Source: Lysinibacillus macroides
GTDB taxonomy: Bacteria; Bacillota; Bacilli; Bacillales_A; Planococcaceae
Length of the DNA: 64,000 bases
Assembly: GCF_001281525.1 (NCBI RefSeq)
Contig: NZ_LGCI01000014.1
Location: forward strand, 200,940 to 264,939
Reading direction: 5' to 3'
Of this stretch, positions 274 to 40,711 are shown in pieces. The position numbers and the translations under genes were made by a program. The first letter of the stretch is position 1; every line of letters begins with the position of its first letter. The notes below the pieces were generated by a model. It was not told the DNA's origin. It was given only the letters and a program-made list of their open reading frames with translations, and made no database searches.

Positions 274-3015
274 ATGTTGAATAGACTTAAATTAGGAATA
301 CGCTCCAAGATTACATTAGGTTATATCGTTATAATCCTTTGCTTACTTGCAGCAATTATTATATTAAATCATCAAATTACCTCTTTACAGGAGGAAAGAA
401 ATTATATTATTAAATATGATGCAAAAGTTCAGGAGCTTACGAATAATATTGAGAAATATATATTAGATATGGAATCAAGTCAGCGAGCCTTTATTATTAC
501 GGGTGAACCAAGTTACCTGGAGCCTTATGATAATGCGGCTAAAAGTTGGAAAACTGATTTTAATGATCTTTATCTTCAATTAAAAGAGAAACCAACCCAG
601 CGGGAAAAACTAAAGGAGATAGAGGAGACGATTGAGCATTGGATTGAAACTTCAGGTAATCCAACGATTCAATTTACAAAGGATAATGATACAGCAGCAC
701 TAAATGAATTTTTTAAAGTAGATAATGGGCGCCAAGACATAGAAAAAATGCGTAATTTATTTGAGTCTTTTCGCTCGGCTGAAAATAATTATACACAGGC
801 CAAAGCTCATCAATTAGATAAGAAAAATAGTCAGTTAACGAGTGGTTTATTTGGTATTTTAATTGTTATTTCTACTATTTCTATTATTATAGCTAATGGA
901 ATTTCCCAGTCTATTGTGAAAACGATCACAGAGGTAATGCAAACAATCCAAGAAATTGCAGTGACAAAGGGTAATTTCAAAAGAAGAATTCATGTTAAGA
1001 CGAATGATGAAGTGAATGAGCTTGCTGATGCAACAAATCTATTATTAGAGTCTGTTGAAAAAAGAGAATGGCTGCAAACAAATATTGCTGATATTGTCAA
1101 GAAATACCAAGGTATTTCAGCGATTTCAGGATTGGCGGAGACGTTTCTCTCAGAGGTGGCACAAAAAACAGAAGCTTCCCTTGGTGCATTTTACGTCCGA
1201 GAGGAGATAGAGGATCAAGTACTTTTTGTGAAAAAGGCTACCTTTGCTGATGGAGATGATCTCCTTGGGATAAATAGCTTTAAAATAGGGCAGGGGTTAA
1301 TTGGCCAATGTGCTTTAGAAAAAAGAATATTATTTTATGATAATATACCGCAAAATTATCGTTTAATTCGAACAGGTTTGGCAGAAATGAGGCCTCAAAA
1401 TATTTTATTAGTTCCAATTATTTTTGAAGGCGAAGTAATTGCAGTGGTTGAACTGGCAACAATGACTAGCTTTAATGATTTACAGCAAGAATTGGTGAAG
1501 CAGGTTATTGAAAACTTTGGATTAACGATTAATAGTGTCTTAGGACGTATGGAAATAGTGCGTTTATTGAACGAATCGAGAGCAATGACTGAAGAATTAC
1601 AAGTTCAATCAGAGGAGCTTCAAACACAGTCTGAGGAGCTACAAATGCAGACAGAGGAGCTAACAATCATTAATGAACAGCTTGAAGAACGAACAAAAGA
1701 GGCAGAGTCGAAGTCCAAAGAATTAGAAAAGGCGAAGAAGGAATTAGAGGAAACCGCGGAACAGCTTATCTTAAATTCCAATTATAAATCTGAGTTTTTA
1801 GCCAATATGTCACATGAATTAAGAACACCTTTAAATAGTATTTTGATTTTATCGGAAATGTTAGCAGAAAATAGCCACAATAATTTAACAGACGAGGAAG
1901 CAGAATTCGCTAAGGTTATTCATTCCTCTGGTGAGGATCTGCTGGCACTAATTAATGATATTTTGGATTTATCAAAGGTTGAGGCAGGGAAGCTCGATAT
2001 GATTTTTAATGAAGTAAATATGAACGAGATACCTACCCAAATGGAACATACCTTTGCACCGGTTGCGATAAAGAAAAATTTAGCTTTCTTGATTTCGAAA
2101 GCAAATGACGTTGTGGATATATTCTATACAGATGAAAAAAGATTCCATCAGATATTAAAGAATTTATTATCAAATGCCTTTAAGTTTACCGAAAGTGGCT
2201 CAGTAACCTTAACGATTCAGCAGCTTACACAGCAGCAGCTAACAAGCAATATGCAAGAGGTGAGTGCTGATTGGCTAGAAATTACAGTGTCAGATACGGG
2301 TATAGGCATTCCAAAGAACAAGCATCAGCTTATCTTTGAATCATTCCAACAAGCAGACGGGGCTACTGTGCGGAAATATGGTGGTACAGGATTAGGCTTA
2401 TCGATTTGTAAGGAGTTTGCTAAATTACTTGGTGGTTGGATTACACTACAAAGTGAAGAGGGGCAAGGTAGTAGCTTTACCTTAACGATTCCAAGTTTAC
2501 CAAATGGTATCGAAGAGGAGCAATGTCAGAAGCTCGCTATGAATGAGGTTGCGGTTACAGTTGAGGAAGTTGCATTAATAGAAGAACAGCCACAAGAAAA
2601 AGAAGAAGTTTCTCAGCATGAAGTAGAGGTCTTTCAAGGGAAAAATATTTTAATTGTGGACGATGATCATCGTAATATTTATGCATTAAAAACAGCTCTT
2701 GAAAAAAGAGGAATGAATATTCTTGTTGCCAAGGATGGGCTTGAAAGTATAGAGATTATGCAGGCTAATCATAATGTTGACCTCATTCTTATGGACATTA
2801 TGATGCCAATTATGGATGGCTATGAGGCGATGACCATTATTCGACAACAAATGAAACAAACAGATTTACCAATTATCGCATTGACTGCAAAGGCGATGAA
2901 AAATGATCGTGATAAAGCATTGCAGGCTGGTGCATCTGACTATATTAGTAAGCCATTAAATTTAGATCAATTATTATCGGTTTTAAGAGTATGGCTAGTA
3001 TCTAAAGGGAGTTAA
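274..3015 (+). CDS. Hybrid sensor histidine kinase (CHASE3-HAMP-GAF-HisKA-HATPase-REC)
   Basis: A 913-residue membrane sensor kinase with its own receiver domain. Visible order: transmembrane helix at about 14-31, an extracytoplasmic helical CHASE3 sensor at about 35-180, a second helix at about 188-207, HAMP, a GAF domain at about 280-425, and a Glu/Gln-rich coiled coil (430-500) with repeated EELQ units. The HisKA box SHELRTPLN places the phospho-accepting histidine at 514. The ATPase N box and the G boxes DTGIGIP and GGTGLGLSI follow. The C-terminal receiver has DD near its start, Asp841 as the likely phospho-acceptor and Lys893. The start has the ribosome site GTAGGAGA. The cheR-like gene follows after 5 bases, so the two are co-transcribed. 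The signal sensed is unknown. Confidence 0.93.
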   Translation: MLNRLKLGIRSKITLGYIVIILCLLAAIIILNHQITSLQEERNYIIKYDAKVQELTNNIEKYILDMESSQRAFIITGEPSYLEPYDNAAKSWKTDFNDLYLQLKEKPTQREKLKEIEETIEHWIETSGNPTIQFTKDNDTAALNEFFKVDNGRQDIEKMRNLFESFRSAENNYTQAKAHQLDKKNSQLTSGLFGILIVISTISIIIANGISQSIVKTITEVMQTIQEIAVTKGNFKRRIHVKTNDEVNELADATNLLLESVEKREWLQTNIADIVKKYQGISAISGLAETFLSEVAQKTEASLGAFYVREEIEDQVLFVKKATFADGDDLLGINSFKIGQGLIGQCALEKRILFYDNIPQNYRLIRTGLAEMRPQNILLVPIIFEGEVIAVVELATMTSFNDLQQELVKQVIENFGLTINSVLGRMEIVRLLNESRAMTEELQVQSEELQTQSEELQMQTEELTIINEQLEERTKEAESKSKELEKAKKELEETAEQLILNSNYKSEFLANMSHELRTPLNSILILSEMLAENSHNNLTDEEAEFAKVIHSSGEDLLALINDILDLSKVEAGKLDMIFNEVNMNEIPTQMEHTFAPVAIKKNLAFLISKANDVVDIFYTDEKRFHQILKNLLSNAFKFTESGSVTLTIQQLTQQQLTSNMQEVSADWLEITVSDTGIGIPKNKHQLIFESFQQADGATVRKYGGTGLGLSICKEFAKLLGGWITLQSEEGQGSSFTLTIPSLPNGIEEEQCQKLAMNEVAVTVEEVALIEEQPQEKEEVSQHEVEVFQGKNILIVDDDHRNIYALKTALEKRGMNILVAKDGLESIEIMQANHNVDLILMDIMMPIMDGYEAMTIIRQQMKQTDLPIIALTAKAMKNDRDKALQAGASDYISKPLNLDQLLSVLRVWLVSKGS

Positions 3016-3020
3016 TACAC

Positions 3021-3875
3021 ATGGAACAAATGCAGCCTTTGGAGCAGAAAATACAATTAGATAAGCAAACAAAATTAGAGATTGAGTTGTTACTAGAGGC
3101 TATTTATCGTTTATCAGGTTTTGATTTTCGACAATATAATCGTTCCTCCATTTCACGAAGAATTTATAATAGGATGAAAATAAATAATATCCCAACAATT
3201 TCTCGTGTACTAGAAAAGGTTATTCATGATAAAGCGTTTTTAGAGCAGCTTTTAAACGATTTTTCAATAAATGTTACGGAAATGTTTCGCAATCCTAGCT
3301 TTTTTAAAACCTTTCGCGAAAAGGTAATCCCGTCTTTACGAGACTATCCAGAAATCCGGATATGGCACGCTGGCTGTGCAACAGGTGAGGAAGTATACTC
3401 AATGGCTATTTTGCTTCAAGAAGAAGGGCTTATGGAGAGGGCTATGATTTATGCAACGGATATGAATGAGCAAGTTTTAGAAAAGGCAAAAAAGGGCATC
3501 TTTCCAATCCATAAAATGCAGGCGTATACGAAAAACTACATGCTGGCTGGAGGGGCGCATGCTTTTTCAGAATACTATAAGACTGATTATCAATATGCCT
3601 ACTTCCACCCTACTTTACTGAAAAATATTATTTTTGCTCAGCACAATTTAGTCACAGATCAATCATTTAATGAATTTCATGTTATTTTATGTAGAAATGT
3701 GTTGATTTATTTTTCACCTCAGCTACAAAGTTATGTGCATCAGTTGCTTTATGAAAGCTTAAGTGATCAGGGGTTTTTATGCTTGGGGGATAAAGAAACA
3801 TTGCGATTTGAAGAGGTTATTTCAAACTATGCAGAAATTGCATGTAACGAGAGAATTTATCAAAAAAAGCATTGA
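3021..3875 (+). CDS. CheR-family protein-glutamate methyltransferase
   Basis: A 284-residue CheR-type S-adenosylmethionine-dependent methyltransferase. The N-terminal all-helical part (YRLSGFDFRQYNRSSISRRI) resembles the CheR substrate-binding domain. The SAM-binding motif I is seen in IRIWHAGCATGEEVYSMAI, and NVTEMFRNPSFF is the CheR motif that precedes it. Its ribosome site lies in the 3' end of the hybrid kinase gene, so the two form an operon. Because it sits with a hybrid kinase and opposite a receiver-phosphatase, rather than in a chemotaxis operon, it probably modifies a partner in this signalling set instead of classical chemoreceptors. That role is inference. There is no CheB partner in view. 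Confidence 0.9.
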   Translation: MEQMQPLEQKIQLDKQTKLEIELLLEAIYRLSGFDFRQYNRSSISRRIYNRMKINNIPTISRVLEKVIHDKAFLEQLLNDFSINVTEMFRNPSFFKTFREKVIPSLRDYPEIRIWHAGCATGEEVYSMAILLQEEGLMERAMIYATDMNEQVLEKAKKGIFPIHKMQAYTKNYMLAGGAHAFSEYYKTDYQYAYFHPTLLKNIIFAQHNLVTDQSFNEFHVILCRNVLIYFSPQLQSYVHQLLYESLSDQGFLCLGDKETLRFEEVISNYAEIACNERIYQKKH

Positions 3876-3901
3876 TCATAAAAATCTACTTTACTTTAAA
3901 C

Positions 3902-3952
3902 TGCGCCCCAATTGTTAGATACTATCTAACAATTGAAGGTGCGGTTTTTTTC
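3902..3952. terminator. Bidirectional terminator between convergent genes
   Basis: A 13-base perfect inverted repeat (CAATTGTTAGATA at 3909-3921, with its complement following) is embedded in a longer GC-containing stem and followed by seven T. It serves the cheR-like gene and probably the convergent phosphatase gene. Confidence 0.85.
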
Positions 3953-3955
3953 CAT

Positions 3956-5089
3956 TTAAGAGCTTGCATTTGCTTGAATCATTACTACACACATATCATC
4001 AGGCTGATTTTTTTGTTTGTCCTTTGGCAATAAATTATCAATTAGATTTTGTGAGTATTCCCATTTAGTGGATGTAAGCGCCTGCAAATGTTGCTCTGCC
4101 TCTATTTCACAGGGGCCCATTGCTTCTAAAACACCATCTGTAAACAAAACAATTTGAATATCTTGCTCATATTGAATAAATTGCTTGGACACATCAATTT
4201 CATCAAAAAAGCCGACAGCACAGCTACCTTGGTTTAATGGTATACATGTTTTTTCATCAATGAGTGCGTACCCAGCAGGATGTCCAGCATTTATGTATTC
4301 AACTGTTTTTTCCTTTGTATTAATGACTAAATAAATCGCTGTGAAATAATGGAGATTATTGTCTTTTCCGTCTTGTAAAAGGGTCATATAGCGATTCAGA
4401 TCCTTAATAACAAGCTCCGGATCATTTAATTGTTTCACAGCCTCTCTTAGTACAGAGGAAATAAACATACAAACAAGTGCTGCAGATATACCATGTCCCA
4501 TCATATCTAATAAAATAATGGCATAGCGATGATCGTCTATTTTATGCCAATAATACATATCCCCTGCTAAATTAGAGCATGGTAGATAGGAAACGCCAAT
4601 GCGAATATCCTTTTCATCTAATGGAGGACTCAGTAAGCTTCTCTGTACATGGGTAGCTAAATCGAGTTCATAGGTTATTTTCTTTTCATGCTGTTTGTGC
4701 CAATCTAATTCTGTCTTTAACCGTAGGGCAACTCGAATTCTAGCAAGCAGCTCTGTTTTATTAATCGGTTTTGTAATGTAATCTACGCCACCAATATCTA
4801 ATGCTTCAGCTAGTTTACTTTTATCCTCAAGTGCTGTAACAAATATAATTGGAATATCTTTTAATCTTTCGTTTTGCTGAATACGTTTACAGGCTTCAAT
4901 CCCATCAATTTCTGGCATCATAATATCTAATAAAATTAAATCTACTGTATTTTGTGTATCTAAACGTAAATAATCAAATAGCTCATAGGCGGATGCCAAA
5001 GAAACACAGTTTGTATAACCTGCGCTTTTTAGTATTTTTTCAATGACAAACAAATTGACTTGATTGTCATCTACTAGAAGAATGGTCAT
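3956..5089 (-). CDS. Response regulator with SpoIIE/PP2C serine phosphatase domain (RsbU-like)
   Basis: A 377-residue fusion of an N-terminal receiver (Asp55 in LILLDIMMPE, DD at 7-8, Lys in the TKPI motif) and a C-terminal PP2C-type SpoIIE phosphatase domain. The phosphatase metal-binding motifs are visible as NLAGDMY, LLDMMGHGISAAL, NAGHPAGY and FTDGVLEAMG. Such proteins dephosphorylate anti-anti-sigma factors in partner-switching pathways, for example general stress control. Phosphotransfer to the receiver would come from a kinase such as the neighbouring hybrid enzyme. No anti-sigma or anti-anti-sigma gene is nearby, so the target is unknown. The start is preceded by AAGGGGAAA. It converges on the kinase-cheR operon across a shared terminator. 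Confidence 0.9.
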   Translation of the reverse strand: MTILLVDDNQVNLFVIEKILKSAGYTNCVSLASAYELFDYLRLDTQNTVDLILLDIMMPEIDGIEACKRIQQNERLKDIPIIFVTALEDKSKLAEALDIGGVDYITKPINKTELLARIRVALRLKTELDWHKQHEKKITYELDLATHVQRSLLSPPLDEKDIRIGVSYLPCSNLAGDMYYWHKIDDHRYAIILLDMMGHGISAALVCMFISSVLREAVKQLNDPELVIKDLNRYMTLLQDGKDNNLHYFTAIYLVINTKEKTVEYINAGHPAGYALIDEKTCIPLNQGSCAVGFFDEIDVSKQFIQYEQDIQIVLFTDGVLEAMGPCEIEAEQHLQALTSTKWEYSQNLIDNLLPKDKQKNQPDDMCVVMIQANASS

Positions 5090-29807: not shown

Positions 29808-30140
29808 TTATCGTAAAGCTTCAATGGAAGATGCGAGTTCCGCAACTACAATTTTGCTGCCGATAATCGGACTATCAGCTTTGTCACCCTCAGAGCCCGA
29901 ACCTGGACGTTGATGAGCTGCAGCAAATGCATCGCTATTGCGCCATGCTTGGAAATGCTCCTTGGATTCCCAATACATATTCACACTCATTTCGTCATAA
30001 GTAGGATCATCCGTTGAAATTAACACCTCTACTTTATGGAAGCCTTCAAATTGTTGTAGAGGACCTGGTTTTGTAAAATTCGGTGCCATTCTTGCAGCAA
30101 AGCCTGGTTTTACTTGAATGCGGTTCGTTACAATAATCAT
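29808..30140 (-). CDS. hmoA: Haem-degrading monooxygenase (HmoA/IsdG-like)
   Basis: A 110-residue ABM-fold protein of the IsdG/HmoA family. The N-terminal Asn in IIVTNRIQV, the Trp in FQAWRNSDAF and the His in AAAHQRPG correspond to the Asn-Trp-His catalytic set. It opens haem to release iron. AAGGGGGG precedes the start, and a Fur-type box lies about 45 bases upstream, so it should be induced in iron limitation. Monocistronic. Confidence 0.9.
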   Translation of the reverse strand: MIIVTNRIQVKPGFAARMAPNFTKPGPLQQFEGFHKVEVLISTDDPTYDEMSVNMYWESKEHFQAWRNSDAFAAAHQRPGSGSEGDKADSPIIGSKIVVAELASSIEALR

Positions 30141-30181
30141 GCTTTTCCCCCCTTACTATTAGTTACTAAGTATTTGAATGA

Positions 30182-30200
30182 GTTATCATTGATTATCATT
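30182..30200. promoter_or_regulatory. Fur box upstream of hmoA
   Basis: GTTATCATTGATTATCATT contains two overlapping TGATWATCATT-like hexamer sets close to the Fur consensus GATAATGATAATCATTATC. Its position upstream of a haem oxygenase supports iron control. Confidence 0.6.
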
Positions 30201-30732
30201 CGCAATCAATCATAAGTGGCATAAGAAGTCATTGTCAATAGTTGCCCCTTATATCGGCTAATATTTTCCCGACAGTATTTGGTTAGTGATTTGCGGTGGA
30301 TACTATTCTAGTAAAGTATGAGATTGTCGATATTAGTCAATTTCTATTGGAAGCGGTGGAAGGTTATGCAAAAAGATAGAATGTATAGATGTCCAATTAT
30401 ATTTGCTAAAACAACAAGATTAGGCATTTATTTTGATGTATAGAAGGAAACATGCAATTCATCAAAAAACATGGTGTTGGTGATCGAAATGTTATCTTTT
30501 TTCCTGTAAATTTAATTAAGGGATGGATGATAATTTTATCGGCACCATTTTTTAAATTAAAAATATTTATTTAACTATTTTTATATAAATGAGTAGTAAT
30601 GTTATAATACGGAATTATATAATAAATTCGGATTATGTAGTCGCAATATTCATAAATCTTTTTACAACACATCCACCACCCTCACTAACAAGATGCCACA
30701 ACATGAAACGAAAAAACAGTGGGAGAGTTGAG
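30201..30732. other. Non-coding stretch with a degenerate copy of the island promoter region
   Basis: No credible gene. CGCAATCAATCATAAGT at about 30200-30217 also occurs at about 32620-32637, ahead of the response-regulator gene, and resemblance continues loosely for some 70 bases. A 25-codon frame at 30366 is not supported. The remainder is AT-rich. Confidence 0.4.
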
Positions 30733-32486: not shown

Positions 32487-32620
32487 CCTTTGTTGTTACA
32501 GTTAAGCGTAATAGTCGCTAAAACATAACCATATCCAATGCATTTGGGTATGGTTTTTACTTTTGGGCATGCTAAAATAAAGCACTCTTTACTGAGGAAA
32601 TTTTTTGAGTGGGTTATCAT
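32487..32620 (+). repeat. Left direct repeat of the island (degenerate CotH 3' end plus terminator)
   Basis: This stretch matches 38311-38450. TTTGTTGTTA...CGTA...CGCTAA mirrors the last codons and stop of the cotH-like gene (both end VV...KR..R-stop). The hairpin AACCATATCCAATGC...GGTATGGTT matches its terminator, and ATGCTAAAATAAAGCAYTCTTT-CTGAGGA follows in both. Identity over the best 85 bases is roughly 80 percent by eye. It appears to be what is left of a second cotH-like gene. A hairpin terminator (about 32525-32557) is included. Confidence 0.6.
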
Positions 32621-32663
32621 GCGCAATCAATCATAAGTAAAGTAGAAAGACATTATCGATAGC

Positions 32664-32696
32664 TGACACTTCCCTGACATTATTCGGTGCTATACT
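32664..32696 (+). promoter_or_regulatory. Promoter of the response-regulator gene with TGACA direct repeats
   Basis: TGACA at 32664-32668 and 32675-32679 (11-base period), then 11 bases, then the -10 box TATACT (32691-32696). The layout is identical to the promoter at 35079-35111. Direct repeats one helical turn apart beside a -10 box without a proper -35 are typical of OmpR/PhoB activation, so autoregulation is likely. Confidence 0.7.
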
Positions 32697-32730
32697 GATA
32701 GAAAAAAGGCTAATAGTGAGGTGGATGGCT

Positions 32731-33417
32731 GTGGCAAATATATTAGTGGTGGAAGATGAATATGCAATCAGCCAGGTTTTAACGGTTTATTTAAAAAAGG
32801 TAGGCTATGAGGTGACACAATGCTTTAATGGTGGACAGGCATTAGATGTATTTCATAAGGTACAGCCAGACTTAGTATTGCTAGATATTATGCTGCCCGA
32901 GAAAAATGGGTGGTTGATTTTAAAGGAAATAAGAGAGCTAAGTGCTTGTCCCATTATTATGTTAACCGCATTAGGTGAGGTGAATAATCGTTTAGAGGGC
33001 TTTGAGCAAGGTGCAGACGATTATATTGCTAAACCTTTTATTGCAGATGAAGTTGTGGCAAGAGTAAAGGCAGTGTTACGACGTACCACAGGGAATCTTG
33101 ATCCAACTTCTATAAAGCGCTATGGAGCTCTTCAAATTGATCGTAAGGCACATCAGGTATTTTTAGGAGAGGAAGAAATTATATTAACACCAAGAGATTT
33201 ATCAGTACTGTTGTTTTTAGCTGACCATCCGAACCAAACGTTTACACGTGACCAGCTTATCGATCAAATTTGGGGTTGGGAATATGAGGGGAGCGATCGA
33301 GCCGTCGATTTAGCTATTAAGAGGCTACGTAGGGCATTAAAGGAATGGGATGAAGCAGAGGGAGAAATAAAGACACTACGTGGATTGGGGTATCAGCTAA
33401 GTGTTTCAAAAAAATAA
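32731..33417 (+). CDS. OmpR/PhoB-family response regulator
   Basis: A 228-residue two-domain regulator: receiver with Asp52 (LVLLDIMLPEKNG), DE at 9-10 and Lys in the AKPF motif, then a C-terminal winged helix (LTPRDLSVLLFLADHPNQTF to TLRGLGYQLS). The frame is open from GTG 32716, but AGGTGG lies six bases before GTG 32731, which gives the usual ANILVVEDE start. It overlaps the kinase gene by 17 bases. It is the probable binder of the TGACA repeats upstream of itself and of the VTC cassette. Confidence 0.93.
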   Translation: MANILVVEDEYAISQVLTVYLKKVGYEVTQCFNGGQALDVFHKVQPDLVLLDIMLPEKNGWLILKEIRELSACPIIMLTALGEVNNRLEGFEQGADDYIAKPFIADEVVARVKAVLRRTTGNLDPTSIKRYGALQIDRKAHQVFLGEEEIILTPRDLSVLLFLADHPNQTFTRDQLIDQIWGWEYEGSDRAVDLAIKRLRRALKEWDEAEGEIKTLRGLGYQLSVSKK

Positions 33418-34804
33418 ACGCATTGCCTTACTCCATTACTGGACAAGCCGCTATTTACTCACCCTTTTCATCGGGCTAGCGATTATTTCATTGATTTCTG
33501 CAGCATGGATTCGTCATACAACCTTTGAAAATCGCTTAGAGATGATGGCGTTTTTAGCAGATGAAACCGTTTATCGTCTTACTGATACATCTGAGCCAAA
33601 TGGTATTCCGGGCTTTATCGGTGATCGAGAACGTTTTACTATGAGGGAAATTGATCCTATTTTATATGTGGTAGATACAGCAGGCAATATATTGACAAGT
33701 AATCGTCCTGTGCCACCTGATCGTGTTAAAAATATTGCTAGCTTATTGGATGGCAAAGAGGGCATAGCGAAAATAACGGATGAGCAAGCATCTATTCAAT
33801 ATGTTGTGAAAAGAAAAATAGAAAGTAATCATAAGTTAATGGGCTGGGTACTTGTGATGGAAAAAAGCGACAATTTAACAAGAGTGAACCAGGCATATGG
33901 TCAGCTTGCACTGTTAATTGGGGCGTTAGCTGTTTTAGGCTGGATCGCTATTTATTTTTTATCAAAGCGTTTAGCCTATCCAATTAAGCAAGTAGCGAAA
34001 GCCGCAAAGCAAGTGCAGGAAGGAAATTATACCATTGATTTGCCTCAGGATAGTAAGGAAGAAGAGGTATATGAGCTTGTGACCTCCTTTGAAAATATGG
34101 CACATAAGCTAGAGCAGCTGGAGAAAACCCGAACGGAATTATTAGCAGGTGTTACGCATGAGCTGAAAACACCTGTGACATCTATAAGTGGCTTATTACA
34201 GGCTGTTAGAGATGGCGTTGTAACTGGACAGGATGCAAAGGAATTTATTGATATGGCGATGGTCGAAACAATGAAGATGAAAACAATGGTCGGTGATTTA
34301 CTGGCGTTTAATCAATTTGCTGTGGATGCTATTCCAGTCAAGCTTGAGGTTGTGAATGTTAATCAGCTTCTGCGTGATGCGGTGATGCAGTGGAAAGTCA
34401 TGCAAGAAGAGGAACGGGTAGATGTACAATTACATTTACTAGAGCAAGCCGTAATGGTTCAGGCAGATATTGTACGTGTTCAGCAAATTATGACAAATCT
34501 ATTTACCAATGCCAAACAGGCAATGGACAATGGCACGATTACAATCACTGTAATGGATCAGGGGGCTACACTAGCTATTGTGGTGAAAGATACAGGTGAT
34601 GGTATCCCGCTGGAAGATCAGGCATTTATTTTTGAGCGTTTTTATAGAGGGGAAAATAAAAAATATACTATTAGAGGACTAGGTCTAGGGTTACCACTTA
34701 GTAAAATGATGGCACAATCGATTGGTGGTGACTTGCGATTAATCGAAAGCGACACCTCTGGGACATGCTTTGAATTTGTATTGCAAAAGGCTACTACGTC
34801 ATAA
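33401..34804 (+). CDS. Membrane sensor histidine kinase
   Basis: A 467-residue kinase: helix at about 15-37, an extracytoplasmic loop of about 130 residues, helix at about 170-190, HAMP, HisKA with His253 (GVTHELKTPVTSI), and an ATPase domain (NLFTNAKQAM, DTGDGIP, RGLGLGLPL). GTG start within the end of the regulator gene, so expression is coupled. Its sensor loop has no recognised fold. It is the partner of the upstream regulator and likely controls the VTC-DUF4956-CotH genes. A terminator overlaps its stop codon. Confidence 0.92.
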   Translation: MFQKNKRIALLHYWTSRYLLTLFIGLAIISLISAAWIRHTTFENRLEMMAFLADETVYRLTDTSEPNGIPGFIGDRERFTMREIDPILYVVDTAGNILTSNRPVPPDRVKNIASLLDGKEGIAKITDEQASIQYVVKRKIESNHKLMGWVLVMEKSDNLTRVNQAYGQLALLIGALAVLGWIAIYFLSKRLAYPIKQVAKAAKQVQEGNYTIDLPQDSKEEEVYELVTSFENMAHKLEQLEKTRTELLAGVTHELKTPVTSISGLLQAVRDGVVTGQDAKEFIDMAMVETMKMKTMVGDLLAFNQFAVDAIPVKLEVVNVNQLLRDAVMQWKVMQEEERVDVQLHLLEQAVMVQADIVRVQQIMTNLFTNAKQAMDNGTITITVMDQGATLAIVVKDTGDGIPLEDQAFIFERFYRGENKKYTIRGLGLGLPLSKMMAQSIGGDLRLIESDTSGTCFEFVLQKATTS

Positions 34805-34825
34805 GAGCGTAGTAGCCTTTTCTTA
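34785..34825 (+). terminator. Terminator of the two-component operon
   Basis: AAAAGGCTACTACG (34785-34798) and CGTAGTAGCCTTTT (34808-34821), a perfect 14-base stem that contains the kinase stop codon in its loop. Confidence 0.9.
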
Positions 34826-34859
34826 TGTTTGTAGGCAAAATAAAAAGAATTAAGTCCAA

Positions 34860-34985
34860 TTAGAGCCAATCTTTTACATATGCGATTAATCCTAGGAATG
34901 TACCTATCCCTGCACCAAAGAAAATAGGAATTATAATATTGGGATTATACCTTTTTTTATTTAGTAGTTTATTATTATGATTCAT
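34860..34985 (-). CDS. 41-residue single-helix membrane peptide
   Basis: A minus-strand frame from ATG 34985, preceded by a near-perfect TAGGAGGAA site, encodes 41 residues. A basic, Asn-rich N-terminus (NHNNKLLNKKRYNPN) is followed by one hydrophobic segment with glycine spacing (IIIPIFFGAGIGTFLGLIAY) and a VKDWL end. Length, ribosome site and composition support a real small membrane protein. It lies between the two-component operon and the divergent VTC cassette, so it may be an accessory of that system; this is inference. Confidence 0.6.
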   Translation of the reverse strand: MNHNNKLLNKKRYNPNIIIPIFFGAGIGTFLGLIAYVKDWL

Positions 34986-35078
34986 TAAAATTCCTCCTAC
35001 CATTCTTTATTCACTATACGGAAAAATTAAGAAAACGTTTCAGGCTTTCTTCAACAGGACAAAAAGAAAATAGTAGAC

Positions 35079-35111
35079 TGACATCTGCCTGACACAAAGG
35101 CCCTTTATAGT
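35079..35111 (+). promoter_or_regulatory. Promoter of the VTC-DUF4956-CotH cassette with TGACA direct repeats
   Basis: TGACA at 35079-35083 and 35090-35094 (11-base period), an 11-base gap, then TATAGT (35106-35111). The same geometry is found ahead of the response-regulator gene, so both promoters probably answer to that regulator. Confidence 0.7.
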
Positions 35112-35166: not shown

Positions 35167-35868
35167 ATGCCTATTGTTACTTCATTTAACCCAAATGGTC
35201 GCAAGGAAATTAAGCAGGCGATCTCCTATCCAGATTATGCGTTATTAAAGGCTAAGCTTCAATATGTGATGCAACTAGATAAACATGCAGGCAAGAATGG
35301 CAAATATTTAATTCGGAGCACATACTTCGATAATTTTGCCAATAAAGTGCTCAATGAGAAAAAAGAGGGCTATATTAATCGCGATAAATATCGAGTGCGT
35401 ATCTATGGTAAATCCAGTGCCATTATTAATTTGGAGCGCAAGAGTAAGCGCAATAATTTAACCTTTAAAACAAAATGTGCCATCTCACAAGCAGAGTATG
35501 AGAAAATGCGCGTTGGAGATATAGCGTGGATGGAGGAAGATAAACGAGCGCTTATTCGAGACCTATACCAAGAGATGCATTATAGCCAGCTTAAGCCAAC
35601 AACAGTAGTAGATTATGAACGAGAGGCCTATATCTATCCATTTGGCAATGTGCGCGTAACTTTTGATAGTAAGGTGCAATCAAGTCTACGCAATACAGAT
35701 ATGTTTAATCCAGAGTTACCTATGGTGGATGTATTGGAGCCAAACCTTGTCATTTTAGAAGTGAAATATGATGAATATTTACCAGATATCATCAAGTATT
35801 TACTACAGTCTGTGGATACACGTGCAGAAGCCTATTCAAAATATCAACTCAGTCGTATGTACGGCTAA
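35167..35868 (+). CDS. VTC-domain (polyphosphate polymerase-like) protein
   Basis: A 233-residue protein of the VTC/CYTH-like tunnel-fold family: RKEIKQAISYPDYALL, YLIRSTYFDN, DKYRVRIYG and INLERKSKRNN give the conserved basic and acidic tunnel residues; EVKYDEYLPDII is near the end. In eukaryotes this domain makes polyphosphate from ATP. The bacterial proteins are annotated as polyphosphate polymerase domain, with activity mostly untested. AAAGG precedes ATG 35167. It starts a three-gene unit with DUF4956 and CotH proteins. Confidence 0.85.
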   Translation: MPIVTSFNPNGRKEIKQAISYPDYALLKAKLQYVMQLDKHAGKNGKYLIRSTYFDNFANKVLNEKKEGYINRDKYRVRIYGKSSAIINLERKSKRNNLTFKTKCAISQAEYEKMRVGDIAWMEEDKRALIRDLYQEMHYSQLKPTTVVDYEREAYIYPFGNVRVTFDSKVQSSLRNTDMFNPELPMVDVLEPNLVILEVKYDEYLPDIIKYLLQSVDTRAEAYSKYQLSRMYG

Positions 35869-35884
35869 TATAAAGGAGACATGA

Positions 35885-36571
35885 ATGATGGATACAATTA
35901 ATTTTAGTGATATTTTTAAATCCAATTTTTTAGAAAAAACAACATCATTTTCATTGATTGATTCTGTGATTGGATTAGTAGTAGCATTTTTTATCGGGCT
36001 TTTTATTTATGTGGTTTATAAGAAAACCTTTAATGGTGTGATTTACTCACATTCCTTCAATATTTCCTTGTTAATTATGACAATGGCCACAGCACTTGTC
36101 ATTATGGGGATTAGCTCCAATGTGCTGCTATCGCTTGGGATGGTTGGAGCCCTATCAATTGTGCGATTCCGTACACCAATTAAGGACCCAATGGATTTAG
36201 TATATATATTCTGGGCAATTGTTTCTGGTATTTTATGTGGCGCAGGCTTTATACCCTTAGTGATTATTGGCGCTGTGTTAATTGGACTTGTATTGCTTGT
36301 ATTTGTCAATAAAATTACTGTAGAAAATCCTTATTTATTAATTGTAAAGCTTGAGGAAGAGCTTGCTAATGCAGAGGTAGAGCGCATTATTGCTGCTGAA
36401 ACAAAAAAATTCGCGCTGAAGTCTAAATCCATTATGCAAATGGGGGAAATTGAAACAACTTATGAAATTCGTATCAAGCAAAATGATGCTAAACTGATGG
36501 ATCGTTTAACAAAGGTTCCAGGTGTGCAATCTGCCATTATGCTTAGCTATGATGGGAATTTCACGGCGTAA
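35885..36571 (+). CDS. DUF4956 membrane protein
   Basis: A 228-residue protein with about four transmembrane helices in its first 145 residues (the LSLGMVGALSIVRFRTPIKD motif between helices is diagnostic of DUF4956) and a soluble C-terminal ferredoxin-like part. AAGGAG precedes the start, 16 bases after the VTC stop. DUF4956 proteins regularly accompany VTC-domain and CotH proteins in Firmicutes. It may anchor the polymerase or move its product across the membrane. Function unproven. Confidence 0.85.
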   Translation: MMDTINFSDIFKSNFLEKTTSFSLIDSVIGLVVAFFIGLFIYVVYKKTFNGVIYSHSFNISLLIMTMATALVIMGISSNVLLSLGMVGALSIVRFRTPIKDPMDLVYIFWAIVSGILCGAGFIPLVIIGAVLIGLVLLVFVNKITVENPYLLIVKLEEELANAEVERIIAAETKKFALKSKSIMQMGEIETTYEIRIKQNDAKLMDRLTKVPGVQSAIMLSYDGNFTA

Positions 36572-36588: not shown

Positions 36589-38349
36589 ATGATAAAAACA
36601 CGCATTGTCTATCTGTGCATGGCGATACTGCTTGTTCTCTTTGCTGTGATATATGCGGTGCTTCCGAATATAGGCATTGAAACAAAAAAAACTGAGTTTT
36701 CCTATGAGAATTTGGTATTTAATAAAAATAAAGTCACAACCGTTGATATTGAAATAGCTGAGGAAGATTGGGCTGATATGCTTGAAAATGCAGCAGAGGA
36801 GGAGTTAAAGCAGGCCACTATCACAGTTAACGGCAAGAAAGTAGAAAATGTTGCTATTCGCACAAAGGGCAATTTATCGTTACGTTCGGTTGTGAATAGT
36901 GACTCTGATCGCTATAGTTTAAAAATTGATTTTGATTATTATGATAATACACAAAGCTTATATGGTTTGAAAAAATTAAACTTAAATAATAATTATAGTG
37001 ACACTACATTGATGCGAGAATATATTTCCTATGAATTGATGGAGCAAATGGGCTTACCAACGCCAGCTCATTCCTATATGTATGTCACTGTAAATGGTGA
37101 GGAACGCGGCTTGTTTTTAGGTGTGGAGGCCGTGGATGAAACCTTTTTAGCAAATAACTATGGCTCTAATGATGGTTTTTTATTTAAACCAGATGGAACA
37201 GGCAGTGATTTACAATATATTAGTGATGATCTAGCAGACTATACAGGTATTGGCTTAAAGACCAATGAAGGCAATAGTGATGAATCGAAGCTTATTGAAA
37301 TGCTGGATGCTATCAATAATGGCGGAGATATTGAGCAATACATTGATGTCGATGAAATGTTGCGCTACTTTGCCGTAAATACAGCAATTGTGAATTTAGA
37401 TAGCTATCAAGGAAATATGAAGCACAATTACTATCTGTATGAACAAAATGGGGTGTTTTCTATTATTCCATGGGATTATAATATGGCATTTGGAGGCTTT
37501 GGTGCTGGTGGTGGTAGAATGGGTGGAGAAAATGATCAAAATCCAGCCAATACTTCTACTAATAGGGAAAGAACTTTTGTCCAAAATAATGAACAACCTG
37601 CTCAGGCAGATGGTGAAGATAAACAGCAACAAGGTGGCGTCTTTAATATGGGAATGGGCATGTCAGGCAACCTATTAGATGAGAGTGCCATTAATTTTAG
37701 TGTGACGACCCCAGTTTCTGGTACAACGTTAGAGGAGCGACCATTGCTCAATGCTTTACTTGTAAATGAGGAGTACCGTGCCAAATATGAAAGCTATTTA
37801 GAAAAGCTAGCAACCACTTATTTAACAGAGGAGTATATACAATCCATTACTAAAAATTTAGCGGTGCTATTAACAACCTATGTGGAGGCAGACCCTACAA
37901 AATTCTCAACAACAGAGCAGTTTTTAGCAGCAGTTGAGGGTGACAACAGCCTGCCTGAGTTTGCTAAACAACGCTCGGCTTCTATTTTAAAGCAGTTATC
38001 AGGAGAGCTTGTGGTGGAAGCATCTACAACGACAAATATGCCAGCACCTAATGAAAATGGTGCTATGCCAGAAAACTTTGATCCGAGTCAGTTTCCAGAG
38101 GATTTTGATCCAGCGCAAGGCCCACCGTTTAACAGGGAAGGTAATGGTCCAGGGGAGGGACAGAATGGCGAACCTATGCAACGTCCTGGTGGAAACGGAT
38201 TTAAAATGGGGATGCCAGGTGCAAATGGTGAACCATCGAATCAAGCAACTGTTATTGATAAAAATACAGTACTTACAGTAACGGTATCCTTAGTATTCCT
38301 CCTCCTAGCAATCTTATTTGTTGTTAAATTTAAACGTAGAGGCCGCTAA
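36589..38349 (+). CDS. CotH-family kinase-like surface protein
   Basis: A 586-residue membrane-attached protein: N-terminal anchor helix (about 7-27), an extracytoplasmic CotH domain (about 40-330) with the IRTKGNLSLRSV, LNLNNNYSDTTLMREYISYE and GEERGLFLGVEAVDETF motifs and the catalytic-type IIPWDYNMAFGGFG, low-complexity Gly/Pro/Asn/Met-rich segments (about 305-360 and 480-555), and a C-terminal helix followed by basic KFKRRGR. CotH proteins are atypical protein kinases that act on spore coat proteins; this one, with two membrane anchors, likely acts at the cell surface. It ends the VTC cassette. Confidence 0.88.
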   Translation: MIKTRIVYLCMAILLVLFAVIYAVLPNIGIETKKTEFSYENLVFNKNKVTTVDIEIAEEDWADMLENAAEEELKQATITVNGKKVENVAIRTKGNLSLRSVVNSDSDRYSLKIDFDYYDNTQSLYGLKKLNLNNNYSDTTLMREYISYELMEQMGLPTPAHSYMYVTVNGEERGLFLGVEAVDETFLANNYGSNDGFLFKPDGTGSDLQYISDDLADYTGIGLKTNEGNSDESKLIEMLDAINNGGDIEQYIDVDEMLRYFAVNTAIVNLDSYQGNMKHNYYLYEQNGVFSIIPWDYNMAFGGFGAGGGRMGGENDQNPANTSTNRERTFVQNNEQPAQADGEDKQQQGGVFNMGMGMSGNLLDESAINFSVTTPVSGTTLEERPLLNALLVNEEYRAKYESYLEKLATTYLTEEYIQSITKNLAVLLTTYVEADPTKFSTTEQFLAAVEGDNSLPEFAKQRSASILKQLSGELVVEASTTTNMPAPNENGAMPENFDPSQFPEDFDPAQGPPFNREGNGPGEGQNGEPMQRPGGNGFKMGMPGANGEPSNQATVIDKNTVLTVTVSLVFLLLAILFVVKFKRRGR

Positions 38350-38450
38350 AAAATAACCATATCCAATGCGTTTGGATATGGTTATTGCCTTTTCTCATGC
38401 TAAAATAAAGCATTCTTTGCTGAGGAGCCTTTTTATATGAATGAATATCA
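38344..38450 (+). repeat. Right direct repeat of the island
   Basis: Counterpart of 32516-32620: cotH stop region, ATATCCAATGC hairpin and ATGCTAAAATAAAGCA segment. The match continues weakly into the start of the methyltransferase gene (ATGAATGAATATCA against TTGAGTGGGTTATCA). Confidence 0.6.
38352..38390 (+). terminator. Terminator of the VTC-CotH cassette
   Basis: TAACCATATCCA and TGGATATGGTTA enclose a short loop and precede a T-rich stretch. The same hairpin exists in the left repeat at about 32525. Confidence 0.8.
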
Positions 38451-39054
38451 GTTTGATAAATATTAGTTTGATAAATATTTACATATTAATACTGTTGGGG
38501 AACAATATGGATTCCCTAAGCTGTCCCATTATCATCGCTATGAGCCAACACCTTATACTGGACTAGAACAGTTATTTGCTGTCTATGAGATGCCAGCTCA
38601 TCCTGTTTTTATTGATATGGGATGTGGGAAAGGACGTGTACCCATTTATGTCTATGATAAATTCCGTGTGCCAACAATTGGAATAGAAATGGATATAGGA
38701 TTTTATAGAGAGGCTGAAGAGAATAAGCGAAGTTATCTACACAAGAAACATGCTCATGCGCCTATCTCATTTATTCATACTATTGCTGAAGCCTATGAAG
38801 TAAAATCATGTGATAATGTTTTTTTCTTTTTCAATCCCTTTTCGATTCATATTTTCCGTACAGTAATTCATAATATTTGGAAATCCTATGAGCAGCGAAT
38901 GCGAGATATTCATATCATTTTATATTATCCACCCTATGATTATTTACAATTCTTACATCATGGAACGCCCTTTGAATTACTTCATGAAATTCATTTAGAA
39001 AATGAAACAAATCTTAATGAACGCCTTTGTGTATTTGGTTTAAAAAAAGCTTAG
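38437..39054 (+). pseudogene. SAM-dependent methyltransferase gene, interrupted by a 15-bp tandem duplication
   Basis: From ATG 38437 (after GAGGAG) the frame reads NEYQFDKY, then TAG at 38464-38466, then FDKYLHINTVGEQYGFPKL and on without further breaks to 39054. The stop is formed exactly at the junction of two copies of AGTTTGATAAATATT (38450-38464 and 38465-38479). One copy fewer would restore a continuous 200-residue protein. The body has the SAM motif VFIDMGCGKGRVPIYVY and a HIIL..PP-type motif, so it is a class I methyltransferase of unknown substrate. A shorter product from ATG 38590 is possible but lacks the leading helices. The lesion is reversible by slippage. Confidence 0.75.
38450..38479 (+). 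repeat. 15-bp perfect tandem repeat in the methyltransferase gene
   Basis: Two adjacent copies of AGTTTGATAAATATT, five codons each, creating an in-frame TAG at the junction. Confidence 0.95.
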
Positions 39055-39514: not shown

Positions 39515-40711
39515 CTAGTTTGCCGGTTCGTGCAGCTGCTCAAACATTTCTTCTAGCTTTGCACGGGCCTGATTGAAGCCGATGTGGCAGCGTGTGGCGA
39601 AACGTTGATTATAGTCTTCGAACTGCGTCACTAAAAAGCGCTCCAACGATTCTTCGTTCGGGAACTGTTCCTTGCGCTTTGTATATTTTTTGATTTGCTT
39701 ATTGAACGACTCGATTAAATTCGTCGAGTAGATGCTTCGCCAAATCGCCTTGGGAAAGCCGTAAAACGTCAGTAAATACGGGTTTTCGAGTAAGCCTTGT
39801 GCGACTTTTTTATACGATTTGCCCCATTTTTCGCAGAACGTCTCGAGCGCTTTTTTCGCTGCTTCAGCGTTCTTTGCCTGGTGAATCGTTTTAAAATCCT
39901 CGCACACTTCCTTGCGATCTTCTACTCGGACTTTATGCATGATATTGCGTGCCACATGGACAAGGCACACCTGATATTTTGCCTTTGGAAACACATTAAA
40001 CACAGCGTCTGCCATGCCTTTTAAGCCGTCTGATACGAATAAAAGTACGTCTTCTACACCACGGTCTTTGAGCTCTTGTAGTAGCTCCTGCCAGTTGTAG
40101 GCCGATTCTGTTGGGGCAATCGTATAGCCAAGCACTTCTTTAGAGCCGTCTTCACGAATACCAACTGCAATATAGACGGCCTCTTTTGACACCGTATCAC
40201 GACGCACGGCAATATACGTCGCGTCTAAATACACGCATACGTAACGATTGTGCAAAGGACGGTTATTAAAGGCTTCTACCGTTTCTGAAACAGCCTTTGT
40301 CATATTCGAAATCGTTTGCGGCGTATAGTGATGCCCATACATTTTCTCAATTAATTGCGCAATTTCCGCCATCGTAATGCCTTTTTTGAACAAGTGAATG
40401 ACCGTTTCTTCCAGCGTATCGTTCGAGCGCTTATATGGTACCACTGTCTGTTGTTTAAACTCACCGTTGCGATCCCGCGGGATTTGAAGCGTTAAATCGC
40501 CGTACTCCGTGTGAAGTGTACGCGAATAAGACCCATTGCGAGAATTGCCTGAGTTGAACCCGATACGATCGTATTTTTCGTAATCCAAAAATTCCGTCAG
40601 CTCTGTCGCCAGTAGCGAGTTGATCGCCATTTCCAAGTGCGAACGAAAAACCTCGGTAATATCTTGTTTTTTGACTAGTGCATCGACAATTTCTGTTGTA
40701 AACTGATTCAT
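39515..40711 (-). CDS. IS256-family (Mutator-type) transposase
   Basis: A 398-residue DDE transposase of the Mutator/IS256 family. Catalytic residues visible: Asp163 (YLDATYIAVRR), Asp228 (FVSDGLKGM), and Glu334 (STNLIESFNKQIKKY); the family C2H motif is CLVHVARN (249-256). GAAAAGAGGTC upstream of the ATG gives a ribosome site. GC content is higher than in surrounding genes, a sign of recent acquisition. Product identical to that of the second copy, and full length, so the element is probably active. Confidence 0.97.
   Translation of the reverse strand: MNQFTTEIVDALVKKQDITEVFRSHLEMAINSLLATELTEFLDYEKYDRIGFNSGNSRNGSYSRTLHTEYGDLTLQIPRDRNGEFKQQTVVPYKRSNDTLEETVIHLFKKGITMAEIAQLIEKMYGHHYTPQTISNMTKAVSETVEAFNNRPLHNRYVCVYLDATYIAVRRDTVSKEAVYIAVGIREDGSKEVLGYTIAPTESAYNWQELLQELKDRGVEDVLLFVSDGLKGMADAVFNVFPKAKYQVCLVHVARNIMHKVRVEDRKEVCEDFKTIHQAKNAEAAKKALETFCEKWGKSYKKVAQGLLENPYLLTFYGFPKAIWRSIYSTNLIESFNKQIKKYTKRKEQFPNEESLERFLVTQFEDYNQRFATRCHIGFNQARAKLEEMFEQLHEPAN

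Follow-up and report, generated by a model that had tools for sequence, protein, structure and literature searches.

Two promoters of one form at a two-component locus

In this work we analyse two promoters in a 64,000-nucleotide stretch of Lysinibacillus macroides DNA (contig NZ_LGCI01000014.1), called the window below. One precedes a two-component system (TCS) made of an OmpR/PhoB-family response regulator and a sensor histidine kinase, the other a cassette encoding a VTC-domain protein, a DUF4956 protein and a CotH-family protein. Both promoters have the form TGACA-N6-TGACA-N11-TATANT, and the double TGACA repeat, referred to as the box, is quite probably the binding site of the regulator encoded beside it. 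The following features make up the locus:

32664-32679, + strand: putative regulator box of the TCS promoter (TGACA 32664-32668, N6, TGACA 32675-32679)
32688-32696, + strand: extended -10 of the TCS promoter (TG 32688-32689, TATACT 32691-32696; 11 bases 3' of the second TGACA)
32731-33417, + strand: OmpR/PhoB-family response regulator (Pfam domains Response_reg and Trans_reg_C)
33401-34804, + strand: sensor histidine kinase (HAMP, HisKA, HATPase_c); its gene overlaps that of the regulator
34785-34821, + strand: terminator-like hairpin where the TCS operon ends (consensus scan only)
35079-35094, + strand: putative regulator box of the VTC cassette promoter (TGACA 35079-35083, N6, TGACA 35090-35094)
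35106-35111, + strand: -10 of the VTC cassette promoter (TATAGT)
35167-35868, + strand: VTC-domain protein, predicted polyphosphate polymerase (PF09359, E 8.6e-38)
35888-36571, + strand: DUF4956 protein (PF16316, E 3.3e-10)
36589-38349, + strand: CotH-family kinase-like protein (PF08757, E 8.8e-68)

Scanning the window with the pattern TGACANNNNNNTGACANNNNNNNNNNNTATANT gave matches with 0 mismatches at 32664-32696 and 35079-35111, in agreement with the preliminary description of this DNA, which had claimed identical geometry for the two promoters. When up to three mismatches were allowed, the window contained five matches, the remaining ones with 2, 3 and 3 mismatches, and shuffled sequences gave 3.63 on average. 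An extended -10 (TGC ahead of TATACT) is present at the TCS promoter, while the VTC promoter is devoid of one. The earlier statement that there is no separate -35 box also held, as no -35-like hexamer lies 15-19 bases ahead of the -10 and no sigma-70-type pair was called by the consensus scan on the + strand at either box. Due to the hairpin located between the TCS and VTC genes, the VTC cassette looks like a transcription unit of its own, separate from the TCS operon.

The regulator contains a receiver domain (93.6 bits, cut-off 30.2) and a Trans_reg_C winged helix (80.7 bits, cut-off 26.2), which places it in the OmpR/PhoB family. The GSDRAVDL segment of its recognition helix is shared without change by 57/57 relatives. 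Judged by eye, the start codon GTG 32731 suits the upstream AGGTGG better than ATG 32725 does.

A genome scan for TGACAN6TGACAN11TATANT, suggested along with the first description, returned three exact copies in the whole genome (4,866,035 bases) and 0 for the reversed pattern, with approximately 0.035 exact matches expected at an assumed G+C content of 37% (Poisson P(>=3) ~7e-6). The third copy is situated on another contig, about 110 bases 5' of a gene for an Acyl_transf_3 membrane protein. At up to two mismatches the genome yielded 19 matches versus 12 in the control, which is near noise, and therefore no further sites were added. Two single-mismatch candidates were dropped: L005, the sole such match of the exact pattern, resembles coding sequence by eye, and L281, found with the relaxed pattern, has a poor second half-site; the relaxed pattern also gave one control match.

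Fixed geometry of the box and its recurrence with the kinase

Conservation of the box was followed in 106 loci carrying the kinase, 57 from genomes of the family and 49 from the best 80 of 298 relatives obtained in a named-genome scan; the other 31 of these 80 duplicated other loci and were excluded from the counts. An exact double repeat with TANNNT was noticed 131 times at the 6/11 spacing, none of 71 other spacings gave more than 7, and there were 0 exact sites at 6/11 in the reversed control. With one mismatch allowed the box is present in 103 of the 106 loci (181 sites versus 2 in reversed sequence). A double repeat with at most one mismatch lies within 350 bases of the regulator gene in 41/57 family loci and 23/49 further loci.

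Altogether 199 sites were collected, 194 of them with a called target, and target clusters 0-7 provided 175 unique sites for a profile. The half-site consensus is YTGACAT and CTGACAYA. Both TGACA repeats and the TA...T of the -10 served as selection criteria, so only the other positions are independent, and among these T at position 6 (95%), Y at 11 and 17 (100%) and A at 18 (91%) are conserved. TTGACA was matched at four or more positions 15-19 bases before the -10 in 29/175 unique sites, compared with ~25% in shuffles, i.e. the -35 element is absent. The promoters differ in the TGn motif before the -10, which occurs in 50/62 unique regulator-gene sites versus 1/97 unique sites of target clusters 1-4. 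This suggests that the TCS would be expressed at a basal level, while its targets would remain tightly controlled.

In the family we searched 261 genomes for the kinase (E <= 1e-85) and found it in 57. The exact box is present in 37 of these 57 genomes versus 4 of the 204 without the kinase, and the reversed control gave 0 in all 261 (Fisher 6.5e-26 for the association, relatedness ignored). Exact matches in two kinase-less genomes, G211 and G257 (L198, L199), seem random by their sequence, and the eight query proteins have no match in these stretches. A site shared by G065 and G066, ~560 bases ahead of a gene which we take to be purE-like, was regarded as a chance match.

Within the genus (32 genomes) 51 exact matches were found in 24 genomes, the control giving 0 in 32/32. 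All 51 could be assigned: 17 to intact regulator promoters, 2 to relics (G015, G030), 19 to the VTC operon, whether or not a PrsA-like gene precedes it, 12 to the acyltransferase and 1 to a secreted repeat protein. The kinase (E <= 1e-60) and the VTC gene co-occur in the same 22 genomes. In all 22, the VTC gene or a PrsA-VTC pair is preceded by the pattern with at most one mismatch, and the same holds for the regulator promoter in 21, G016 being the exception. An acyltransferase match of at least 75% identity exists in 13 genus genomes, in 12 with an exact box and in G019 without a box at up to one mismatch.

In three of the ten kinase-less genus genomes (G015, G029 and G030), a promoter of the regulator type is retained at the junction of hmo with a methyltransferase gene. 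These promoter scars now stand 5' of the methyltransferase gene:

L132, 6887-6919, - strand: regulator promoter scar
L133, 4983-5015, + strand: regulator promoter scar
L312, 5222-5254, - strand: regulator promoter scar

What is left of the system next to them varies: 29 aligned regulator residues in G015, two regulator fragments and 60 residues of the CotH end in G030, and neither in G029. All three relics have the appearance of cassette deletions. The seven remaining kinase-less genomes, among them G005 which is only 86% complete, gave no match even with the relaxed pattern.

Targets of the box and the proposed mechanism

Because either the kinase or the pattern was used to collect the loci, the target counts refer to the TCS neighbourhood and pattern matches, not to whole regulons. 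The 194 called targets comprise 64 regulator, 35 PrsA-like, 32 VTC, 25 HtrA-like and 12 Acyl_transf_3 genes, followed by secreted repeat proteins (9 and 4), exporter adaptor-like proteins (3), two pairs and six singles; a relaxed genus search added three more repeat-protein sites. The expectation that the motif would be searchable for other targets was thus borne out, as it led to the acyltransferase, PrsA-like, HtrA-like and repeat-protein sites. One PrsA-like, one HtrA-like, one acyltransferase and one DUF3500 protein were checked with Pfam, the remaining members being assigned by BLAST clustering; the exporter label comes from reading the sequence and several small clusters are unannotated. 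The HtrA-like targets sit at the TCS in other genera.

Secreted-looking repeat proteins are encoded behind a box at L134 3644-4453, L313, L314, L315, L171 1932-2729, L277 and L278. In the two box-linked repeat proteins that were scanned no convincing Pfam family was found; by analogy, such proteins could be extracytoplasmic chaperone-like or feedback proteins. At locus L197 of genome G255 (2764-3975, - strand) a DUF3500 lipoprotein-like gene has a box beginning 67 bases before its start codon.

We are fairly confident that both boxes of the window are binding sites of the regulator 32731-33417, which would activate a small and mostly autoregulated regulon in the class II manner of PhoB. The first description had already read the layout as an OmpR/PhoB-type activator site, and the comparison supports it by the pstS-like geometry, the OmpR/PhoB domains, the invariant GSDRAVDL and the box tracking the TCS. 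The pstS promoter of E. coli K-12 is activated by PhoB in class II manner, and TGTCA-N6-TGTCA-N11-TATA is found there once in 3.5 kb. Both systems share a winged-helix OmpR/PhoB regulator and two 5-base half-sites 11 bp apart, the second 11 bp before the -10, and the further trait of PhoB-type class II promoters, the lack of a -35, is found here as well. They differ in the half-site, TGTCA there and TGACA here, and in the targets, which here look like envelope genes. The same class II activation at an altered half-site best explains the boxes.

In the proposed mechanism the kinase would phosphorylate the regulator, and a head-to-tail regulator dimer would occupy the two TGACA half-sites, 11 bp or one helical turn apart, in the place of the -35. 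The bound dimer would then recruit sigma-A RNA polymerase to the -10 starting 11 bp downstream, as PhoB does. Box 1 would drive the TCS operon, where the extended -10 probably gives a basal level, box 2 the VTC-DUF4956-CotH genes, and the third box of the genome the Acyl_transf_3 membrane enzyme. Binding, activation and the signal are in this scheme deduced from sequence. The PrsA-like, HtrA-like, secreted repeat-protein and few exporter-like targets in related genera, which we take to belong to the Bacillales, make an envelope or secretion-stress response the likeliest role, and the regulon probably serves it.

Several observations weigh against this interpretation. Even at two mismatches there is no box within 350 bases of the regulator gene in 5/57 family and 22/49 further loci, so that autoregulation appears common, not universal. 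No exact match was found in 20 of the 57 kinase genomes, the genomes are related and their counts are not independent events, and the family kinase search scored only six candidates per genome. G015 retains an intact box at its acyltransferase gene despite having no kinase match. Support for the envelope-stress role comes from what the targets are, and in the L. macroides genome no PrsA or HtrA gene lies behind any of the three exact sites. Finally, a VTC match occurs in 48/57 kinase genomes (one, G053, weak) versus 79/204 kinase-less ones, which means that the cassette is not exclusive to the TCS and would be controlled otherwise elsewhere. An exact box was found in just one of these 79 genomes, G211, where it does not share a contig with the listed VTC matches. 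In favour of the interpretation, the box (at most one mismatch) is absent from 30/30 fetched VTC loci, 29 of them from kinase-less genomes. The tie between TCS and VTC cassette that had been drawn from the two promoters is supported by exact boxes and the TCS occurring together in the genomes compared, but it is not an exclusive one.

Known systems and rival explanations

The TCS may be a known secretion-stress system, CssRS (htrA, htrB) or PieRS (prsA), or its orthologue. We consider this unlikely, even though the kinds of targets are alike. According to the cited sections, CssRS controls HtrA and HtrB in B. subtilis and is autoregulated, the latter by the title of a reference given there (PMC4812647), while PieRS controls PrsA1, PrsA2 and an ABC transporter in Listeria (PMC12234432). 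The likeness would lie in two-component control of HtrA-type proteases, described as autoregulated, in one case, and of PrsA foldases with an ABC transporter in the other. A length of 16 bases is given for the CssR box, and one report quotes a mutated BoxI starting with TGAC (PMC6057675), so a kindred site is possible and CssR may use a similar box. However, the CssR boxes quoted in that report are upstream of the -35 region, unlike here. Compared with an uncurated CssR sequence, the regulator shows 31% identity (120 bits, BLASTP); MtrA reached 162 bits with another program, which only suggests that CssR is no closer. PieRS membership did not follow from NCBIfam, PieR scoring 155 bits against a cut-off of 450 and PieS 114.2 against 850. 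Moreover, the box described here has PrsA-like and VTC targets in addition to those of the CssRS kind, and a VTC gene is not named in the PieRS regulon list as cited (PMC12234432).

Somewhat less probable still is a PhoPR-type phosphate-starvation system inducing polyphosphate synthesis. It would agree with the PhoB-like geometry, with the predicted polyphosphate polymerase activity of the VTC protein and with PhoB, PhoR and PnpS being among the closest of the 25 NCBIfam models listed from 101 that matched. Yet the regulator reaches the cut-off of none of these 25 models, PhoB, MtrA and PieR included; the PhoB equivalog TIGR02154 gave 208.4 bits against 296.2, and PhoR (136.6/334.2) and PnpS (148.9/400) are likewise under their cut-offs. 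Near the TCS, the large clusters of targets consist of prsA-, htrA-, VTC- and secreted-protein genes, and no phosphate-uptake gene was recognised among the target clusters, of which several singles are unannotated and for which whole-genome target lists exist only within the genus.

It is improbable that a different regulator reads the box and that the TCS operon is just one of its targets. Binding of the TCS regulator is predicted from sequence, and in G015, G029 and G030, which lack the TCS, a box persists where it used to be, in G015 also at the acyltransferase, as such a reading would have it. Against it, exact boxes follow the kinase across the 261 genomes, nearly all kinase loci have a box, the fetched VTC loci are free of it, and the three relics share one hmo-methyltransferase junction and resemble deletions. 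That the two sites are alike by chance, or that one promoter was copied from the other, is hardly credible in view of the excess of exact matches in the genome, the conservation of the box in other genera and the fixed 6/11 spacing, although repeats in the window resemble remains of a duplicated cassette.

Two other recognition sequences were compared and set aside, since the CiaR-type repeat TTTAAG (PMC4938410) and the CutR site TAWATAAA (PMC12802291), as quoted there, differ from the box. A contiguous set of CotH, poly-phosphate polymerase and DUF4956 genes, as here, has been reported beside Gram-positive pel clusters (PMC7112168); that set differs in being accompanied by DUF4832 and pel genes, and in the cited part no such TCS is described.

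Returning to activation by the TCS regulator, the kind of regulator and box is already known, and what appears new is the regulon and the link of a polyphosphate-polymerase cassette to extracytoplasmic protein quality control. Neither the box nor a link of the VTC cassette to PrsA/HtrA was found described in the open-licence literature searched, most subscription journals lying outside it. The observation on two sites is thereby extended to a regulon with a precise, searchable operator recurring across many related genera, and an otherwise unplaced cassette gains a regulatory context beside PrsA-like and HtrA-like genes. A more far-reaching idea, which we put forward only tentatively and rate as doubtful, is that VTC-DUF4956-CotH might be an envelope quality-control device induced by the TCS under envelope stress, beside PrsA foldase and HtrA protease: polyphosphate would be fed out through the DUF4956 membrane part and would shield unfolded secreted proteins, and CotH would be a surface kinase. 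The box might then mark a third Bacillales secretion-stress regulon, distinct from CssRS and PieRS.

The genes behind the boxes were characterised as follows. Polyphosphate synthesis by the cassette is predicted from the PF09359 match (130.6 bits, cut-off 23) and from similarity to Vtc4: a profile of 17 relatives matches the yeast Vtc4 chain 3g3q_A (E 1.1e-4), and the single sequence gave no PDB match. The DUF4956 gene product is probably a membrane protein. The AlphaFold model of the kinase has a mean pLDDT of 74.5 and a WalK model as its top solved-structure match; the sensor domain was uninformative in the model and the structure comparison.

Direct repeats join 30193-30250 with 32614-32671 (78%) and 32489-32606 with 38317-38434 (82%). 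Both pairs resemble the termini of a tandem copy, since lost, of the entire TCS-VTC-CotH cassette, and no box was seen in the promoter remnant of the left repeat copy. A methyltransferase-like gene after CotH (38420-39054) carries an in-frame TAG following nine codons, at a short tandem duplication, and is intact in relatives. Ahead of a heme oxygenase gene (29808-30140) lies a Fur-box-like stretch (30180-30220), and a partial copy of it is located beside the TCS promoter. Two 398-residue genes, presumably transposase-like, look identical, one near the cassette (39515-40711, - strand) and one near the acyltransferase locus (L004 2756-3952, - strand).

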